Source: Mesaphorura yosii
Taxonomy: Eukaryota; Arthropoda; Collembola; Poduromorpha; Tullbergiidae
Assembly (NCBI GenBank): GCA_009869945.1
Contig: WIXG01000047.1
Location: forward strand, 186,001-250,000
Direction of reading: 5' to 3'
DNA: 64,000 bases
This document shows, piece after piece, positions 632-18,035 of the stretch (positions are counted from its first letter, which is position 1; each line of letters starts with the position of its first letter). The position numbers and the translations under genes were made by a program. The notes under the pieces are model-generated. The model saw only the letters and a list, made by a program, of their open reading frames with translations. It did no database searches and was not told the origin of the DNA.

Positions 632-2662
632 ATGACTTCGGCCGCTGGATTGCTGTTGTCTCTGGTCTTGAATACAGCAGCCATCAGTTGTCTCTCTTTG
701 GAGTCTGCTGCAAAAATTTCCAACCTCATTTTTGAGGCAGATAAAAAATTCTCGGGATTGACAGATTTGAGGTGCCACTCATGGCTTCTTCCACAATCTT
801 CGAGTTCCTCATACTCACTGTCACCGATCTTCTTTCACACGAATTTCGCGTTACCTGTTGTGCTTTGCGCGCCTGAATCCGAGTCCACCAACAATTACAA
901 CATCAACAAAAGTAAGACATCCTCAGAAAACGAGATTCTGCACCCACGAATTCTTGGAGTACAAAGATTCACTCGAAATTGTATGTCCGTCTTCTTACAT
1001 TCGGACACTGGGAAAGACGTCATCAACTACTTAACATCTTCGAGGTTAATACAGCCTGATAAAGACTACTTCTTTCTGCTTGGAGCCTCCGGAGTGGCAT
1101 TGAACCGCAAGCTGCAGGAGCCGCACTTTATAGAGCTGCAGTACAAAGCCATGATCATGATTGACAATTTGGAGGAAAGCAATCTTGTGGTTAAAAGTTA
1201 TTGCAAAGAATCTGCTAATGATGGAAAGACACTTTTCAGTTTCGAATGCCCATCAATAATTCACGGTCGGCATTTCAAAGCTTCTTGTACAAGAATTCCG
1301 GCCGTTGTTCGACCGGAGATAATTTCTAAGAATGGAACCGTGATTCAGAAAGGTGGCGGATTTACGTACGAAATGTTCCTTGAAGCCAGTAAAAGGTACA
1401 ATTTCTCGTTCGAAAGTGAGCAGTCATCTTCTGGTGGCACATCAGGAGTCATTCGTAATGGTCAATGGACTGGAACTATCGGAGATGTAGTCTCTGGAAA
1501 GTTTGACGTCGGCCTGGGTCTCGGGATTACAGTTGATCGTAACCTTGCAATTGTTTTTTCTGTACCGCAAGAATGGTATGCTCGATTATTTTACGTGAAA
1601 CAACCCGAATTTCACCACGACTGGTGGGCTGTTCTTTGGCCACTTCAATTAAGTGTTTGGATGGCGAGTGTCGGCGTCTTGCTTGTGACCTTGGCCGCAT
1701 TTTATGCTACAGCTGTGCAATATACGAAGACAAATCCGGAACGAAAAATGTCAAAGCTTGGAATTTTGAGACAAACATTTGGCGGACTCTGCCGAACTTT
1801 CGTGGAGCAACCGGCTTGTTGGACCCGTTGGCCTGGAACGCGGTTCCGAATCTTAATTGTTCTTTGGTCAGTGTTCTGCCTGGTATTGGGAACCGGCTAC
1901 CGATCGAAGCTGGTCTCCTTCTTGACGTTCCTGGATCGGCAAAAGATCCCAACCACTCACCTGGAACTGAGTATTTCAGATTACCACCTGTTCTTCAGAT
2001 ACTACGGCGGTGTCGCGTACAAGTACACGAAAGAGTCCTCGAATCCCATGCACCAGCGCATTCTTGCTAAATCTGGACTCTTCAACTCCACCATCGATTG
2101 CATGTATGCTCTTCTTCTCACTCCAAAGAATCAGCGCAGGGCTTGCCTGGACTACGAAGCGCCTTTTGAGTTAGCCGTCTACAAAAACGCTACTCTTCGC
2201 TCGTCACAGCAAACGAGTGACCTTTTCTTCAAGTCAAAGGACGCCGACAACAGTTTCATGATTGCATGGGCATTTCGCAAGCATTCGCCTTGGCTCTCGA
2301 CATTTAACAAGTTCAGCTCGCATTGTTCGGCTGGTAATTTGATAGCAAAATGGACACAGGATGATTGGCACAAAAGCAAAGTTGTTGGCTCCGAATGGCT
2401 TATGCGGCAAGAAGAGAGTAAAGTGAAAAAGAAGGTTGAGCAGCTTCTAGAAGGAAGAGGCGGCATCGGGCCTAAACCATTGGCGAAGACTTCTTTTGCT
2501 GGGTTGTGCATCCTGTACGTGCTTGGAGTACTCACGGCAGTCATGGCGTTTATTGGCGAGGTGTTGACCTGGAAATATTTCGCTTACGCCTGGCGCTGCA
2601 AGGCAAAGTGCCAGGAACGTCAACGACAGGAGATACGGTTGAAATTTCTGTGGACTATATAA
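632..2662 (+). CDS. Divergent ionotropic receptor (IR), intronless
   Basis: A single 676-codon ORF encodes a variant ionotropic glutamate receptor of the arthropod IR type, predicted to be a ligand-gated cation channel subunit of chemosensory cell membranes. A hydrophobic signal peptide (about 1-20) leads into a short N-terminal domain instead of the long iGluR amino-terminal domain. The S1 ligand-binding half contains QKGGGFTYEMF and an ITVDR motif whose Arg (about residue 303) matches the glutamate-binding T-x-x-R of the family. TM1 follows DWWAVLWPLQ (about 337-362), the pore/TM segment ends in TGYRSKLVSFLTF (about 405-432), and the last TM lies near 625-646. The start gives a good signal peptide. 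Its paralogue lies tail-to-tail at 3632-5689. No ligand can be named. IR identity is secure; the subfamily is not. Confidence 0.88.
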   Translation: MTSAAGLLLSLVLNTAAISCLSLESAAKISNLIFEADKKFSGLTDLRCHSWLLPQSSSSSYSLSPIFFHTNFALPVVLCAPESESTNNYNINKSKTSSENEILHPRILGVQRFTRNCMSVFLHSDTGKDVINYLTSSRLIQPDKDYFFLLGASGVALNRKLQEPHFIELQYKAMIMIDNLEESNLVVKSYCKESANDGKTLFSFECPSIIHGRHFKASCTRIPAVVRPEIISKNGTVIQKGGGFTYEMFLEASKRYNFSFESEQSSSGGTSGVIRNGQWTGTIGDVVSGKFDVGLGLGITVDRNLAIVFSVPQEWYARLFYVKQPEFHHDWWAVLWPLQLSVWMASVGVLLVTLAAFYATAVQYTKTNPERKMSKLGILRQTFGGLCRTFVEQPACWTRWPGTRFRILIVLWSVFCLVLGTGYRSKLVSFLTFLDRQKIPTTHLELSISDYHLFFRYYGGVAYKYTKESSNPMHQRILAKSGLFNSTIDCMYALLLTPKNQRRACLDYEAPFELAVYKNATLRSSQQTSDLFFKSKDADNSFMIAWAFRKHSPWLSTFNKFSSHCSAGNLIAKWTQDDWHKSKVVGSEWLMRQEESKVKKKVEQLLEGRGGIGPKPLAKTSFAGLCILYVLGVLTAVMAFIGEVLTWKYFAYAWRCKAKCQERQRQEIRLKFLWTI

Positions 2663-2740
2663 ATCATGTCGTGGACTTATCCACGACGATTTAGCAGCAT
2701 TTCTTGCCTCTAATTGCAATGTAAACTCTTCGTCCATTTG

Positions 2741-2746
2741 AATAAA
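2741..2746 (+). terminator. Poly(A) signal AATAAA for first IR gene
   Basis: A canonical AATAAA lies 79 nt after the stop codon of the receptor ending at 2662, which is a suitable distance for its 3' end. Confidence 0.5.
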
Positions 2747-3164
2747 CATTTTCATTCTGTCAGCATCTAGAAGCTTGAAGCTGTTGGAATAATTTCGGAT
2801 GCTCGGCAATACGCATTTACAATTTTCAGGTTCTTTTCCTTTGTATGAATGTGGTCGTTGCAGCGCTGGTGTTGAGTACAATCATACTACAATCATGTGC
2901 TAAGCTCCTGACTAAGTTGCTTAAATGAACTCTAAAATGGCTCAGCGCACTCTGAACCCTGCCCGGACTTGCTTCAGCTCGTAACTGCAAACTGCGTAGT
3001 ATGAGCCACCGGCGAATTCAGGAAAGGAATTCTACAACTGCTGGTTCCTTCTACGGGTTGGAGTCGTGCCATTGCTCAGGTTTAAAGTTCATGGCCAGGT
3101 GTTGTCAACTAATGTGGTGATGACATCGTCTGGTGCGACGTGTCAGGTCGTAAAATGAAAATGG

Positions 3165-3172
3165 TATAAAAA
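3165..3172 (+). promoter_or_regulatory. Orphan TATA-box promoter candidate
   Basis: A strong TATAAAAA on the plus strand sits between the two convergent receptor genes. A start site would fall near 3195, in the sequence around GGGACACTACACAGC. No ORF of useful length follows before 3631; the next ATG (3290) opens only a five-codon frame. Both flanking genes are oriented so that this cannot be their promoter. It may drive a short noncoding transcript containing the hairpin at 3251-3291, or it may be chance. Confidence 0.3.
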
Positions 3173-3250
3173 CACGTCGCAATTTTTGGCAGGGACACTA
3201 CACAGCCAGAAGTTCTCAAGCCGTCGAGACGCAGACACCGAGAAGATTCT

Positions 3251-3291
3251 CATTTCTAGTTGGCCTGATTGCTGAAGGCTAACTAGAAATG
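3251..3291 (+). repeat. 15-bp hairpin in the IR intergenic region
   Basis: CATTTCTAGTTGGCC (3251-3265) can pair with GGCTAACTAGAAATG (3277-3291) across an 11-nt loop. All 15 positions pair if one G-U is allowed. It lies about 55 nt downstream of the predicted start of the orphan TATA promoter. The stem is shorter than a usual microRNA precursor. It could be a structured noncoding RNA or a small foldback. Confidence 0.4.
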
Positions 3292-3585
3292 TTGAATGCT
3301 GCATGATTACACTGTGCTTGCAAAAAGTGTAAATGCAGTAGGCAACACTTTAAGTTAGCCCTTCAACTCCTCAAACTTTAGAGCCGAAGAGGAAGAATGA
3401 AGAAGAGGAGAGGTTGTCCGGAAGAGGATTTGCTGCAGTAATCAGCATGGCATTTATGATGTGAAATCAAACTCATCAAAATGCAGTGTTGACTACCGTA
3501 GTTGGTTCACTCACATTCTTCGTTCGTCACGTAGCAGAAAATGCCAGCCGCAGCCATCAATTTGGTATTGAGAAAGAGGCTTGGT

Positions 3586-3591
3586 TTTATT
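3586..3591 (-). terminator. Poly(A) signal AATAAA for second IR gene
   Basis: On the minus strand, AATAAA lies about 41 nt past the stop codon of the receptor that ends at 3632. Confidence 0.5.
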
Positions 3592-3631
3592 CGCAATTAT
3601 GATGGATCGAGCTATGGACACCTGACACATT

Positions 3632-5689
3632 CTAAATCTTTCGCCTCTGCATGGCTCCAGCAATCATCTCAATGCAAATGCTTACTATTGATATGGCTAT
3701 TCCAAAGTTAAAGATTAAGTAGGCTCCAATTAAAGATCCTGCCGGTAACGATTTCGGTCCCGCCTGGTCAACACGGTCCAGCAGCTTCTCAATTGCTTTC
3801 TTCACCGACGAATCATTTTGTTTGCGTAGCCACGTCGCGCCTGCCATGCGACTCTTGTCCCAGTCGTCGTGTTGCCACTTCTCGGGCAACCCACTCGCCA
3901 GGCTACGCAGGATGAGCTTATCGAAAGTCAAGGTCCATGGCGAATATTTACGATACGCCCACACCACGACAGCTTTGTAGTCTGTATCTTTCGATCTTAC
4001 AATAATTTCACGACTCTGAGGAGATGCATGCAGCGTAGCGTTTACGTTCATTGAATACTCAAAGTTCGGGCCGAAATCCAGGCATGCCGTGCGCTCGTTA
4101 GAGAGAAGCAAAGCATAAATGCAATCAATGCTAGAGTTGGCCAACTCTGATTTCGCCAATATTCGTCTGTGCATGGGATTCGTTGACGCAGCAGCGTCAC
4201 GATAAGCAATACCGCCGTAATATCGAAAGAAGAGCTTGTAGTTTGAATTACTCAGCTCCAAGTGCGTTGTTGGAATTTGTTCACGATCCAGGAAGGTTAG
4301 AAATGAGACGAGCTTTGAACGGTAGCCCGTTTCGAGTATCAGGCAAAACAGTGTCCAAACAATGATTAAGAACCTGACACGAATTCCTTTCCAATGCCTC
4401 AGCGTTGCAGCTTGCTCAACAAAAATTCGAGTCATTCCATCCAACACTTCAAGAACAATGCCAATTTTAGTTGGCCTAGATTTTACTTTGTCCATATTAG
4501 CAATCCGGAAGTACTGAATGGCAGAGCAGACAAACACTGGCACCAGTGCTGCAATAACGACGAGAACCGCCATCCATACATTGAATTCTAGAGGCCAGAG
4601 GATCGCCCACCAATCAGAACGGAATTCGGGCAACTTGACGTAAAAGGCGCGAACAAGCCATGTTTGAAGTGCTGATGAGTCAACAAATAGGTTTCTTTCT
4701 TCCGTGACTCCAACTCCGAAGGCGATGTCGGCCTTTCTGGTCAGAACATCGCCAATTGAACCTCCCCAAACACCGTTGTATTTCAGTCCAGAAGAGCCGC
4801 CTAAACTAGAGAGCTGCGCCTCGAACGTATAATTGAACCGATGGCTCCCTTCTTCAAACATAGAGTAAAGCCATCCTCCACCCTTTTGAACAACCTTCGT
4901 TGCATTTGAGCCCTCCTCTTGTGATTTTACATCTGGCTTGATCATAGAAGCCAGATTTGTGCACGCAGCTCGCAGGTGCTGACCAGCGATGATTGCGTCA
5001 CAGTCGAAGTCGAACAACGACAAGGCATCCCCGTTCGTTTTTCGCCTCGCACAATAATTATGGATTGTGAAACGATCTCCATTCGGATTAGCGAGGAGAG
5101 AAATCTTGTGACGAATCTCTGTCATTTCTTGCATTAGCATAAACTTCAGGCTTTGACTTTGACGACCAACAACGAAGAAGTAGTCTTTGTGCTTGAGCAC
5201 CAGTCTTGCATTTATGAGACACTCGATCGTTCTTATAACTTCTAACTCGTCGTTCTCATTTGAGAAAAGAAATGCAGAAACACAATTACGAGAGAATTTG
5301 CGAATTCCGAGCTTCATTGGGATCAGAATTTCTTCCGGAGTGTACTCCTTGCCCGTGTTGCTTGCTGTCAGACTGTGGGAATCATTGCCGCCGATTGACG
5401 ATGAAATTTCATGGCGAAATGAAGCAATAGGAACCATTGACCCAATGCTGAACACGTCTTCAAATTGGAGTGATGGCGGCGAGTAATTTGAGCTGACAGA
5501 TTCCGTAATAATCCACGTGTGGCAGTACAAATCATTGAACCCTGGATGTGATCGATAAGACTTTGAAATGGCTTGGGCGACCTTGACTGTGTGACCAAAA
5601 TAATCAAGGTCGTGGCCGTAATCTATACGAAAACAATGACTGCACAGGATAAAATCCAATAGCAAGCCTGGAATTAGAACTCTGAACAT
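3632..5689 (-). CDS. Divergent ionotropic receptor (IR), intronless paralogue
   Basis: A single 685-codon ORF, clearly related along its length to the receptor at 632-2662. Shared blocks include QKGGG before the S1 lobe, a VTEER motif carrying the conserved binding-site Arg, SDWWAILWPLEFNVWM at TM1, and ETGYRSKLVSFLTFLDREQ after the pore. Others are PTTHLELS, FFRYYGG, NPMHRRILAKS and a C-terminal membrane segment. A signal peptide (about 1-20) follows the chosen ATG. There is no intron, and no frameshift or in-frame stop, so it is probably functional. The pair is most simply explained by an inverted local duplication. By family it should be a membrane chemoreceptor subunit; the ligand and any co-receptor are unknown. 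Confidence 0.88.
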   Translation of the reverse strand: MFRVLIPGLLLDFILCSHCFRIDYGHDLDYFGHTVKVAQAISKSYRSHPGFNDLYCHTWIITESVSSNYSPPSLQFEDVFSIGSMVPIASFRHEISSSIGGNDSHSLTASNTGKEYTPEEILIPMKLGIRKFSRNCVSAFLFSNENDELEVIRTIECLINARLVLKHKDYFFVVGRQSQSLKFMLMQEMTEIRHKISLLANPNGDRFTIHNYCARRKTNGDALSLFDFDCDAIIAGQHLRAACTNLASMIKPDVKSQEEGSNATKVVQKGGGWLYSMFEEGSHRFNYTFEAQLSSLGGSSGLKYNGVWGGSIGDVLTRKADIAFGVGVTEERNLFVDSSALQTWLVRAFYVKLPEFRSDWWAILWPLEFNVWMAVLVVIAALVPVFVCSAIQYFRIANMDKVKSRPTKIGIVLEVLDGMTRIFVEQAATLRHWKGIRVRFLIIVWTLFCLILETGYRSKLVSFLTFLDREQIPTTHLELSNSNYKLFFRYYGGIAYRDAAASTNPMHRRILAKSELANSSIDCIYALLLSNERTACLDFGPNFEYSMNVNATLHASPQSREIIVRSKDTDYKAVVVWAYRKYSPWTLTFDKLILRSLASGLPEKWQHDDWDKSRMAGATWLRKQNDSSVKKAIEKLLDRVDQAGPKSLPAGSLIGAYLIFNFGIAISIVSICIEMIAGAMQRRKI

Positions 5690-14300: not shown

Positions 14301-15295
14301 TCAGGTATTTTGCACTGAACTGCCGGTCTTTTTGAGAGAACACTGGAATGGAATGTATAGAGCTGGTACGTCCAGTATGGTCAATCTGGTCAATCTGGTC
14401 GCGTGCAGTGAGCACTTACTGTTTAAATGCTGTTTTAGACGTGTACTTCATGGCAAAAGTGTTATCCGAGTTGCCCTTCTACATCTTATTTCCATCAATA
14501 ATGGTTTGCATCAGCTACTACATGATTGGGCTATACGATGACGCAAAGGCGCTGTTAATGACAGTGGCAATTCTGGTGCTCATCACAAATGTCACGACAG
14601 CATTCGGTAAGGGCAATCAACGAAGTTTGCTCTAGAAAAATTTTTGGTTGAGTTTGACTACTTTATTTTTAGGTTACTTCTTATCGTGCTTGGCAACGTC
14701 TGTGACGATGGCTCTGATCCTGGCTCCGGCGCTAATCTTTCCCTTCTTCTTGTTCGGTGGCTTCTTCATGAATGCGGGGTATGACTTCTCGATAATTTTG
14801 CTAAAGTTTGAAAACAACATGCTACTAAGCCTCCTTCACATGAAAATTGGTTAGGTCCGGTCCCGATTATCTGAGATGGATTAAACACATCTCGTGGTTT
14901 TATTACGGATACGAGGCATTAGCAGTTGTACAGTGGAAGGAAGTCACAGATATCGAATGTAAAATATAAATTCCGATTCTCAAAAAGAAAGTTGAAGTTA
15001 TCAGGAAAATTTTGATAGGCAATCGGGCAGCGTGTCCTACACCGAACAACATGATGGATGGCAAGACAGTTTTGAAAACTTTGGGATTCGAGTTTGACGA
15101 TGTTAGCAAAGCAACAACTTTTAATTTTCTAAGCGCACTTCATACTTTCTAACTTAAACTCATTTCACTTGGTTTTTTATGTATCGAAAACAGGAACGAC
15201 TGGCATACAACCTCGTCTGTTTGGTAATCCTGCTGATTGGGTTCCAGTTTATTGCCTTTCTTGCTCTCCTGTCGAAGACCCGGCGGAACAACTAA
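11360..15295 (+). CDS. w: White-type ABCG half-transporter
   Basis: Sixteen exons join in phase to 728 aa: 11360-11431, 11908-12268, 12337-12378, 12452-12614, 12685-12790, 13137-13235, 13298-13328, 13399-13606, 13683-13833, 13901-14230, 14305-14365, 14439-14606, 14673-14778, 14855-14958, 15019-15101, 15194-15295. The N-terminal ATPase has Walker [10 protein letters not shown] (159-167), the AYVQQQDLF segment, signature LSGGE (268-272), Walker B LMFCDEP and H-loop HQPSS (His about 325). The C-terminal six-helix domain carries white hallmarks: [33 protein letters not shown] and [10 protein letters not shown]. Drosophila white (687 aa) pairs with scarlet or brown to import eye-pigment precursors. 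Introns are mostly 60-92 nt; the first (476) and fifth (346) are longer. No lesion is seen. The chosen ATG gives a 24-codon first exon in phase; the exact start is the least certain part. Confidence 0.9.
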
Positions 15296-15791
15296 AGATG
15301 GTTCGCTAATTCTGTGCAGCTTTTTGCATTCGTTTGACACAAGTATAATGACCTGGCAATGCATAATTCGTGTAGAACAAAAATTAACTGAGTTTAAAAT
15401 ATAGAAAATATACATTCAGTCTAGTGAGACATAGGACAAGACTCTTAATCCCTGGAATGTCATTGAATCGCTGGTTGTTGCACAATTCAGCATATAACTC
15501 GCAGTTAGTATTGGATTTCTGGAAAAGAAGCACGGAATTAGATGTAAATTAGCATGTCCCGACGTGTAATTATTTTTAACTTAAGCTTGCTTATTGTTAA
15601 AACGTCTGTGCAATTTGATTTGCGTCTACATTGATAATTATAACTAAACTACACCATCCATGAATAAATGTCACGACATGTCTCGTTTTGTATAAAAACC
15701 GCATCAGAGAACGCTTTGTTTCATTCGATTTATATTCATAGGCTCATTTTAAGTTTCTTTCTTAGAAAGGTGAATTGATACCGCCGCAAGT
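15296..15791. other. Convergent 3' region between white homologue and DDI1 pseudogene
   Basis: No gene is supported. The two genes converge here. AATAAA words occur (for example near 15663), but I cannot say which is used. Confidence 0.4.
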
Positions 15792-16453
15792 TCAATTGCT
15801 ACATAAAATTATGAGTAAATCAATGCTTCGTTTTTCTCGCGCTTTTCTTGGAACCGGATGATCTTGATCTCGAGTTGCCCGAAGATGTGGAGCCATGACT
15901 GTTGCCGCGCCAGTACCTGGTGCACCGGAATGACCATGACTCGAATTTTGCTTCGCCTGCTCTTTGGTACTGTCTTCAAGCGCACGGGCCTGTTCAGGGC
16001 CTGCCTGTCTTCCAAACGCCCAGGGTCAATCTTTTTCTGCGCCGAACCATCGTTACTGATACGAGCAAATTCTAGTAGCTCAGACTCTGGTAAAAAGGTG
16101 GCCTCCGTGTTTGTGGTTACAATTTTCAGCACATTTCCTTGCAAATCTATGACGCACTGTGCAATGGGAACTCGTCTGTAGTTCGATTTATTGGACAATC
16201 GTATTTTACTAATGCGATTTTCCTCATGACGCTTCAGCATATCCAACCCGAGCAGCATGTCCATCTTTTGGTCTTCAAGGATCGAAAAGTATGATGTTAA
16301 ATACGATCCATCAATCTCAACTTGAACCATATGAACTCTCCTAATTATTCTTTGCAGACCGACTCCTTTCGCGATCCCGGAAAATCTTGCGCCAACGAGT
16401 CTCAAGATATTGCAACGCTCAGCGCAGTCTGTACTCTGGGGGCAAAAAAGCAC

Positions 16454-16557
16454 GAGAGAATTTATTTTCGCCGCTGTTTGAGTGGTTTTCTCCGCTAAAG
16501 AAATAGGAATCTCACCGCTAATGCTTTTGACCTGCATTAATCATTTTTTTTCATCGC
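16454..16557 (-). repeat. MULE terminal inverted repeat, left arm
   Basis: Read on the minus strand, this arm aligns with the plus-strand arm at 16872-16973 over about 100 bp with few gaps. Identity by eye is roughly 75-80 percent and is best in the middle. Confidence 0.75.
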
Positions 16558-16658
16558 ATTCTAATTACACAGACGGCGCAGCCGTGATTTATTACATAAA
16601 AAATACACCCCACATGCCAATATACTTTAAATAATTATACTTTAAACAGTAACTTGGA

Positions 16659-16865
16659 CTATTGAGCTAAAAGTGCTTTCTTAGCCTTGGCTGGTCGTCC
16701 CTTTTTTCTCTTTTGGTCGATTGGTACCAGCTTGGCTTCTGCTACAACTTTAAATTTGCTTTCCACAATTGCAATTCCGACAGTATGCTTGCAAATAAAA
16801 CGTTTTAGGAAGTCGGTGCAAGTACAAGTCGCCTCTCCCCAGTCACCGTCACTAGTTGAAATCAT
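16659..16865 (-). CDS. SWIM zinc-finger fragment of a MULE transposase
   Basis: A 68-codon ORF with C-T-C-x2-FLKRFICKHTVGIAI, which is the C-x-C...C-x-H pattern of the SWIM finger. A basic KRKKGRPAKAKKALL tail follows, as is common at the C-terminus of MULE transposases in arthropods. It lies wholly between the two inverted repeats. No DDE catalytic region is present. It is a remnant domain and is unlikely to transpose by itself. The ATG may be fortuitous. Confidence 0.7.
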   Translation of the reverse strand: MISTSDGDWGEATCTCTDFLKRFICKHTVGIAIVESKFKVVAEAKLVPIDQKRKKGRPAKAKKALLAQ

Positions 16866-16871
16866 TTAAAA

Positions 16872-16973
16872 GCGGTGAAAAAATGAATTACTGCCGGTCA
16901 AAGGCATTGGCGGTGACTTTCCCATTTCTTTAGCGGGGAAACCATTCAAATAGCGGGGAAGTTAAATACAGTC
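16872..16973 (+). repeat. MULE terminal inverted repeat, right arm
   Basis: Inverted copy of 16454-16557. It begins GCGGTGAAAAAATGA and runs outward to the direct repeat at 16974-16983. Confidence 0.75.
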
Positions 16974-18035
16974 CAAAAAAGCAGAACAAAAATATGACTA
17001 AACACTAAACTGTCGTCCTGCCTGGCTTTACAAAATTTGTACCATTATCGTAGTTTGGGCTCCTAACAATAAAAGTCGAGTCACAATTAATCATTGGGCA
17101 AGCAAACTCGAAATAATTGCGTGATTAGTTAACCCGAGTCAATAAAAGCCCTTCACCGGCACTCCGTTCACTTTGCAATTAATGTACAGCATGCAGATTT
17201 TGACAAAACTCTCTGGATTGATCTCCATCGCAGCTTCTATGTTTGCGTCAATGTTTTTCCGTCGTATTTCCTACTCAATTAGTCTCTGAGCTTCCTCGTT
17301 GAATGGGTCCGCATTCATCAACACTACACGGCGCGCCTCTTTTTATTTGTGTATGCGCTGCATCTCGTGAATCATACGGGCGAATCTCGCTACGATTGAG
17401 ACAGGGCGAATAGAGAACAAGTAATTCTATACTAGAATTTCGAATTTGCCATTTGCGATGATTGAAAGAAATCATACGGAAATCGTGAAGCATGGCATCG
17501 GCAAGTGGCGCGTTGTTTTGTTTCAGCAGTGCTAAAATATTTAAGCTTTGAGCATTTTAGGTTTGGAGAATCTAGTTACTTTGATATTCTGCCATGTACC
17601 AAGATGTTCTAGATTCGCCATAATCTGGTCACGAATCCGAGCGGGGTCGTCCTCCTGGTCAAGTTGCTCCTGCATTACTGAGGCAGGGTCGGCGGCTCTT
17701 CCTGGAACACCGGCACCGCCATTGGTGGCGAGAGAATTTGGCTTGTGTTGCTGCAAAATGAGGACATCGCCCTTATGAACTCCACACGCCTGATGAGATA
17801 CATGACCACTTTATTTCAGAGAACGAGGATACAGATTCAGAATTGAGAAAGTGCTGATCACTTTGAGTGACTTCGTGTCATCTGCCAACGATTCACCACT
17901 CAGGACAATGGAAATTTCCCCCGCGGGGATTTCAGATTCAATATCACATATTGGTCTGAAATTTCCCAGCTCCAGCTCTTCATCAACCTCCAGACTAAAT
18001 ATCAAGTCTGATAAAGCCGCTACTGTAATTTTCAT

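Follow-up and report, generated by a model that had tools for sequence, protein, structure and literature searches.

According to an excerpt of one published study (PMC4962041), most UBL-RVP proteins also carry a UBA domain, which vertebrates appear to have lost. The same excerpt assumes that human DDI1 arose from DDI2 as an intronless retrocopy, states that flies do not survive the loss of Rngo, and gives the protein of the solved structure 4rgh as human (PMC4962041). In searches of an open-licence library, judged by titles and the starts of abstracts, no DDI1 pseudogene of the kind described here and no MULEs (Mutator-like elements) at splice acceptors were found. The window, a stretch of 64,000 nucleotides from Mesaphorura yosii (G000:C47:186001-250000; assembly of 93,006,257 bases in 1127 contigs), holds a DDI1 homologue on the minus strand, from 18035 to ~15820, whose seven exons were placed against a second copy on another contig (C49). 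As judged from sequence comparison, this locus is very probably a duplicated (non-processed) pseudogene of DDI1, with an intact paralogue on C49 that shares introns with it.

Structure and lesions of the window copy

The protein predicted from the C49 copy was matched to the window by tblastn at 18035-17070 (E = 4e-48) and at 16435-16052 (E = 1e-41), values that make a chance match to DDI1 untenable. The window frame at 15809-16540 gave a Pfam Asp_protease match (PF09668) of 90.8 bits over 71 residues. The first-pass annotation had described a DDI1 homologue decayed in place with its introns kept and with a legible UBL domain and retropepsin-like DSG active site, and the seven-exon alignment to C49, together with the lesions, bears this description out. 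The window UBL has 56% amino-acid identity to that of C49, which clears the Pfam cut-off; window exon 1 alone gave a weak ubiquitin match under the cut-off (E 0.032). The active site reads FIDSGAQTTIM across intron 4, and is shifted out of the frame upstream of it by the extra base before FIDSG. No trace of a UBA was found in window 15200-15900, where the best score was 15.4 bits against up to 17.7 in 200 shuffles and where decayed or distant exons could escape detection; a UBA is not needed for membership of the DDI1 family. A processed copy was ruled out by the retained introns. All features are listed in Table 1.

Table 1. Exons, introns, lesions and transposon features of the window copy (positions in the window).
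Feature	Position	Strand	Evidence
Exon 1: start ATG, first part of UBL	17862..18035	-	alignment to C49, tblastn
Intron 1, 72 bp, GT..AG, missing in C49 copy	17790..17861	-	alignment
Exon 2: remaining UBL, linker, start of helical domain	17600..17789	-	alignment
Exon 3, 54 bp, same length as C49 counterpart	17478..17531	-	alignment
Exon 4: helical domain to active-site DS(G); both stops and extra base	17134..17389	-	alignment, protein match G000:C47:203073-203390
In-frame TAA	17343..17345	-	alignment to C49
In-frame TAG	17271..17273	-	alignment to C49
Single surplus base immediately ahead of FIDSG, located to within a few bases (~17150)	17149..17151	-	frame-aware alignment
Intron 4, 71 bp, GT..AG, splits G codon of DSG, missing in C49	17063..17133	-	alignment
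Exon 5: (G)AQTTIM	17043..17062	-	alignment
Intron 5, 607 bp; 76 bp minus transposon and one target copy	16436..17042	-	alignment
Target-site duplication copy 1 (TGCTTTTTTG)	16974..16983	-	exact repeat
MULE fragment, 521 bp, with terminal inverted repeats	16453..16973	-	repeat and relative searches
68-codon open frame, SWIM zinc finger end of MULE transposase	16659..16865	-	Pfam SWIM 23.8 bits, cut-off 19.6
Target-site duplication copy 2, identical, beside exon 6 acceptor	16443..16452	-	exact repeat
Exon 6: second half of retropepsin-like domain, open	16223..16435	-	Pfam Asp_protease
Intron 6, 66 bp, starts GA not GT; if retained, in frame and stop-free	16157..16222	-	alignment
GA in place of GT donor, intron 6 (after RRHQ)	16222-16221	-	C49 has GT
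Exon 7: end of protease domain and tail; one clear frame loss, one possible shift	15820..16156	-	alignment
Tail frame loss	between ~16000 and 15990	-	frame-aware alignment

Introns 2, 3, 5 and 6 lie at positions common to the window copy and C49. Introns 1 and 4 occur in the window copy only, without a counterpart in C49, a pattern that fits gain in the window copy as well as loss from C49.

The two stops, the extra G and the missing G (about 15994) named in the first-pass annotation were all recovered: both nonsense codons are present, and the frame-aware alignment placed the extra base and a frame loss in the tail where they had been proposed. Its reading that the exon phases close only when the extra G is discounted also held, exons 1-5 summing to 694 nt (3 x 231 + 1). 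The lost donor of intron 6 and a second tail shift are additional to these lesions. The second shift, near 15900-15850, is weakly suggested in low-complexity sequence and was adopted because, read in another frame, the 11-residue ending of the window copy is similar to SSKKSRESQA, with which the C49 protein ends; the gene would then end at 15820 instead of 15792. Retention of intron 6 keeps the frame open, which is part of the reason why the frame at 15809-16540 is so long, and a GT further downstream in this intron could act as donor. Rescue by skipping exons 4 and 5 was rejected, as exons 1-3 leave the first base of an unfinished codon and exon 6 begins with a new codon, so that the frame is not kept.

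It could be supposed that the lesions are errors of assembly or base calling and that C47 carries a functional second DDI1, given that the lesions are few and that protein constraint is still plain (pN/pS 0.255 in the conserved domains). This is improbable: two nonsense codons, the loss of a splice donor and two or more changes of frame coincide in a single gene, whereas the C49 gene in the same assembly carries none.

The undamaged copy on C49 and its place in the genome

The C49 gene (C49:297610-295618, minus strand) has no stop, no frame change and GT/AG introns. Its predicted product has 411 residues; a donor within the last exon could link to two further exons downstream that encode a UBA-like stretch, and the product would then have 454. 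The Asp_protease (175.8 bits), Ddi2_HDD (72.9 bits) and ubiquitin (42.1 bits) profiles of Pfam were matched above cut-off by the protein, and the Pfam UBA profile was under cut-off (16.7 against 22.4 bits). The best solved-structure match was 4rgh, 'Protein DDI1 homolog 2' (237.9 bits), which we take to be a human protein. In assembly-wide searches, in which a loose first pass selected the best candidates for scoring, every DDI1 match lay on C47 or C49 (4/4 by Pfam, 10/10 by protein). An intact DDI1 elsewhere had been judged more likely than loss of the only copy, and the lesion-free C49 gene was what the whole-assembly search returned. Loss of a sole DDI1 was ruled out by this gene; since the undamaged copy lies on another contig of the same assembly, the organism probably still has DDI1 and has probably not lost it altogether.

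A further explanation holds that C47 or C49 is foreign, from a contaminant, which would leave the true host with a single DDI1, possibly the defunct copy. Synonymous sites of the two copies are indeed strongly diverged and their introns differ, and a fourth RPB2-like locus is present in the assembly. Matches to the RPB2_6 profile were found at four loci (C500, C161, C49 and C219). By best solved match, that on C500 is Pol II RPB2 (664.7 bits), that on C161 is Pol III (395 bits) and that on C49 is Pol I RPA2 (244.4 bits). C49 is likely part of the same genome because this RPA2, the only Pol I gene found, sits on it. For ribosomal protein L3 there was one main locus on C39 (six matches) and one weak partial match on C10, presumably the mitochondrial form. 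The animal nature of the assembly is read from the RPB2 of C500, whose best match is animal RPB2, and a zf-AD match under its cut-off (25.8 against 28 bits) is a hint of an arthropod or a close relative; COX1 gave no match in the assembly. Relatives of the C47 MULE were found on C305, C384, C847 and other contigs. Tetranucleotide profiles of C49 stretches agreed with those of window parts at 0.85-0.90, alongside 0.79 and 0.86 between non-overlapping window parts (a third pair, 0.97, overlaps) and lower values of 0.68-0.80 for a C305+C384 stretch (10 kb) against the window. On account of RPA2 on C49, the L3 loci, the MULE relatives and the tetranucleotide profiles, a mixture of two animals is unlikely, with C219 unexplained, and a foreign origin of either DDI1 copy is distinctly improbable.

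The fourth RPB2-like locus (C219:69500-74000) was nearest to Pol II RPB2, with scores low for its length (95 and 121 bits); it may be either another housekeeping second copy or a foreign contig. No segmental duplication was seen: open frames of 50 residues or more, taken from 28.8 kb round the C49 gene, matched the window inside DDI1 only, and 721 bases of downstream flank in the window matched only themselves.

Divergence, constraint and time of loss

The alignment of the two copies comprised 386 codons, of which 384 were used after the two stops were dropped, with frame-shift columns and gaps excluded. In the conserved domains (302 codons) pS was 0.796 and pN 0.203 (pN/pS 0.255, bootstrap 0.204-0.310), and 25%, 18% and 57% of codon positions 1, 2 and 3 differed. 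Over all 384 codons the values were 0.773 and 0.261 (pN/pS 0.338). Constraint was uneven, with pN/pS of 0.396 in the UBL, 0.97 in the linker and 0.55 in the tail. By part, pS was 0.84 in the helical domain, 0.85 in the protease, 0.66 in the UBL and 0.55 in the linker, and 63% of four-fold sites (n = 83) were different, about 1.4 changes per site by Jukes-Cantor; because of the lower values in the UBL, the linker and the four-fold sites, the term 'saturated' is valid for the helical and protease domains only. Amino-acid identity was 77% in the protease, 57% in the helical domain, 56% in the UBL, 30% in the linker and 39% in the tail (59% overall). These distances point to old paralogues whose synonymous sites have reached, or nearly reached, saturation; the copies would be old on either wording. 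A recent duplicate of C49 was ruled out by this saturation or near-saturation and by the two unshared introns.

In a simulation on the C49 gene, 3.35% of random substitutions created a stop, and the two stops in 1227 aligned bases correspond to a neutral divergence of 0.049 per site (95% 0.006-0.176). When the pairwise synonymous distance is split evenly, about 0.7 or more falls on the window lineage. Decay was simulated at 0.6, a yardstick somewhat under half of the pairwise synonymous distance, and gave a mean of 13.2 stops (minimum 4) and an identity of 31% in 200 runs; at 0.3 the mean was 9.1 stops (minimum 1) and the identity 53%. Set against these simulations, two stops and 59% overall identity fit selection for most of the life of the copy, which probably died late.

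A relative-rate test against DDI2 used 149 of 150 sites, one being skipped at the frame shift. Changes were window-only at 19 sites and C49-only at 9, an excess that falls short of significance at 0.05 (chi2 3.57, p about 0.06). Among the window-only changes, where C49 agrees with DDI2, are T275L, K277R and G280R. The mild excess on the window lineage is a hint of late relaxation. That the window copy has been dead since the duplication and is conserved in appearance only, as its lesions and the 19/149 sites changed where C49 agrees with DDI2 might suggest, is hardly credible, since neutral decay at 0.6 gives 13.2 stops (minimum 4) and 31% identity against the observed 2 stops, 77% in the protease and 59% overall.

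In the preferred history, an old duplication that carried introns along would have produced two DDI1 copies. On C49 the gene would have stayed complete, from the UBL and the helical domain to the retropepsin-like protease and, through one splice route, a tail resembling a UBA. Its C47 counterpart would have continued as a second coding DDI1, in which no UBA is detected, until synonymous sites had reached or approached saturation, and would then have lost function late, acquiring two stops and frame changes and losing a splice donor, in an order that is conjectural. The window copy would once have been expressed and active, and its loss may have been tolerated because the C49 gene covers the function. 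A bolder form of this history is offered tentatively, and is rather doubtful: the lineage may for a long time have had two functional DDI1 genes, the first with a UBA and the second lacking it, in a vertebrate-like split of independent origin, and may have lost the second so recently that the null may still be polymorphic, with the MULE possibly the first blow.

The transposon in intron 5 and comparison with known systems

The MULE fragment in intron 5 was not part of the first-pass annotation. Its terminal inverted repeats are 90 bp at 84% alike, or 64 nt at 83%, by two comparisons. The target duplication of MULEs is usually about 8-11 bp, and the 10-bp word TGCTTTTTTG has two occurrences in the whole window, both flanking the element, which combines terminal inverted repeats with a 10-bp target duplication as in its class. 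The length of intron 5 is due to the element; without it and one duplication copy the intron would resemble the others. The element's closest relative, which lies on C305, shows 88% identity across 422 aligned positions and encodes a MULE transposase domain (31.1 bits, cut-off 27.6). The 68-codon SWIM frame of the window element ends like the C305 transposase frame, and only this end of the transposase is kept.

The insertion site is a pyrimidine-rich stretch ahead of the intron 5 acceptor, and the MULE and duplication put 531 bp between the upstream part of the intron and the acceptor. The insertion may have disturbed splicing of intron 5; such harm is conjecture, because the duplication leaves a pyrimidine-rich stretch next to the exon.

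On C305 (stretch L026, ~2640-4760) the longer MULE relative contains, besides a transposase frame, one that resembles FLYWCH with a score below cut-off. The 3' end of this relative lies ~20 bases ahead of an apparent tubulin exon, again by a splice acceptor, which may be chance. The word TTTATTATG was found at the left MULE end on C847 (L028 ~1510-1530) and at the right MULE end on C305 (L026 ~2650-2665); as it occurs at both and each element runs towards a contig end, C847 and C305 may flank one element.

The striking reading, an animal losing its sole DDI1, is removed by these results. What remains is a paralogue that persisted for long and was apparently lost late, in the case of a protease that is highly conserved and linked to the proteasome; as its undamaged partner is in the same assembly, UBA-bearing and UBA-less forms can be compared. 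The locus is an ordinary duplicated pseudogene, and what makes it of interest is that an old paralogue, apparently without a UBA, seems to have died late and that a MULE lies by a splice acceptor.

With Ddi1-like proteins (yeast Ddi1, Drosophila Rngo, human DDI2) the window copy has the UBL, the helical domain and the retropepsin-like DSG domain in common; it differs in being broken and in having no detectable UBA. The C49 gene can add a UBA-like tail, like most non-vertebrate UBL-RVP proteins in the excerpt cited above (PMC4962041). As in the human DDI1/DDI2 pair, two DDI1-like genes stand in one genome, and the UBA that the human pair lacks is not detected in the window copy either; whereas human DDI1 is taken in that excerpt as an intronless DDI2 retrocopy (PMC4962041), both copies here bear introns and one is broken. 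With MULEs the intron 5 element shares the SWIM zinc finger, long terminal inverted repeats and a 10-bp target duplication, but in contrast to the C305 relative, with its transposase domain, it is a 521-bp remnant that has the SWIM end only.
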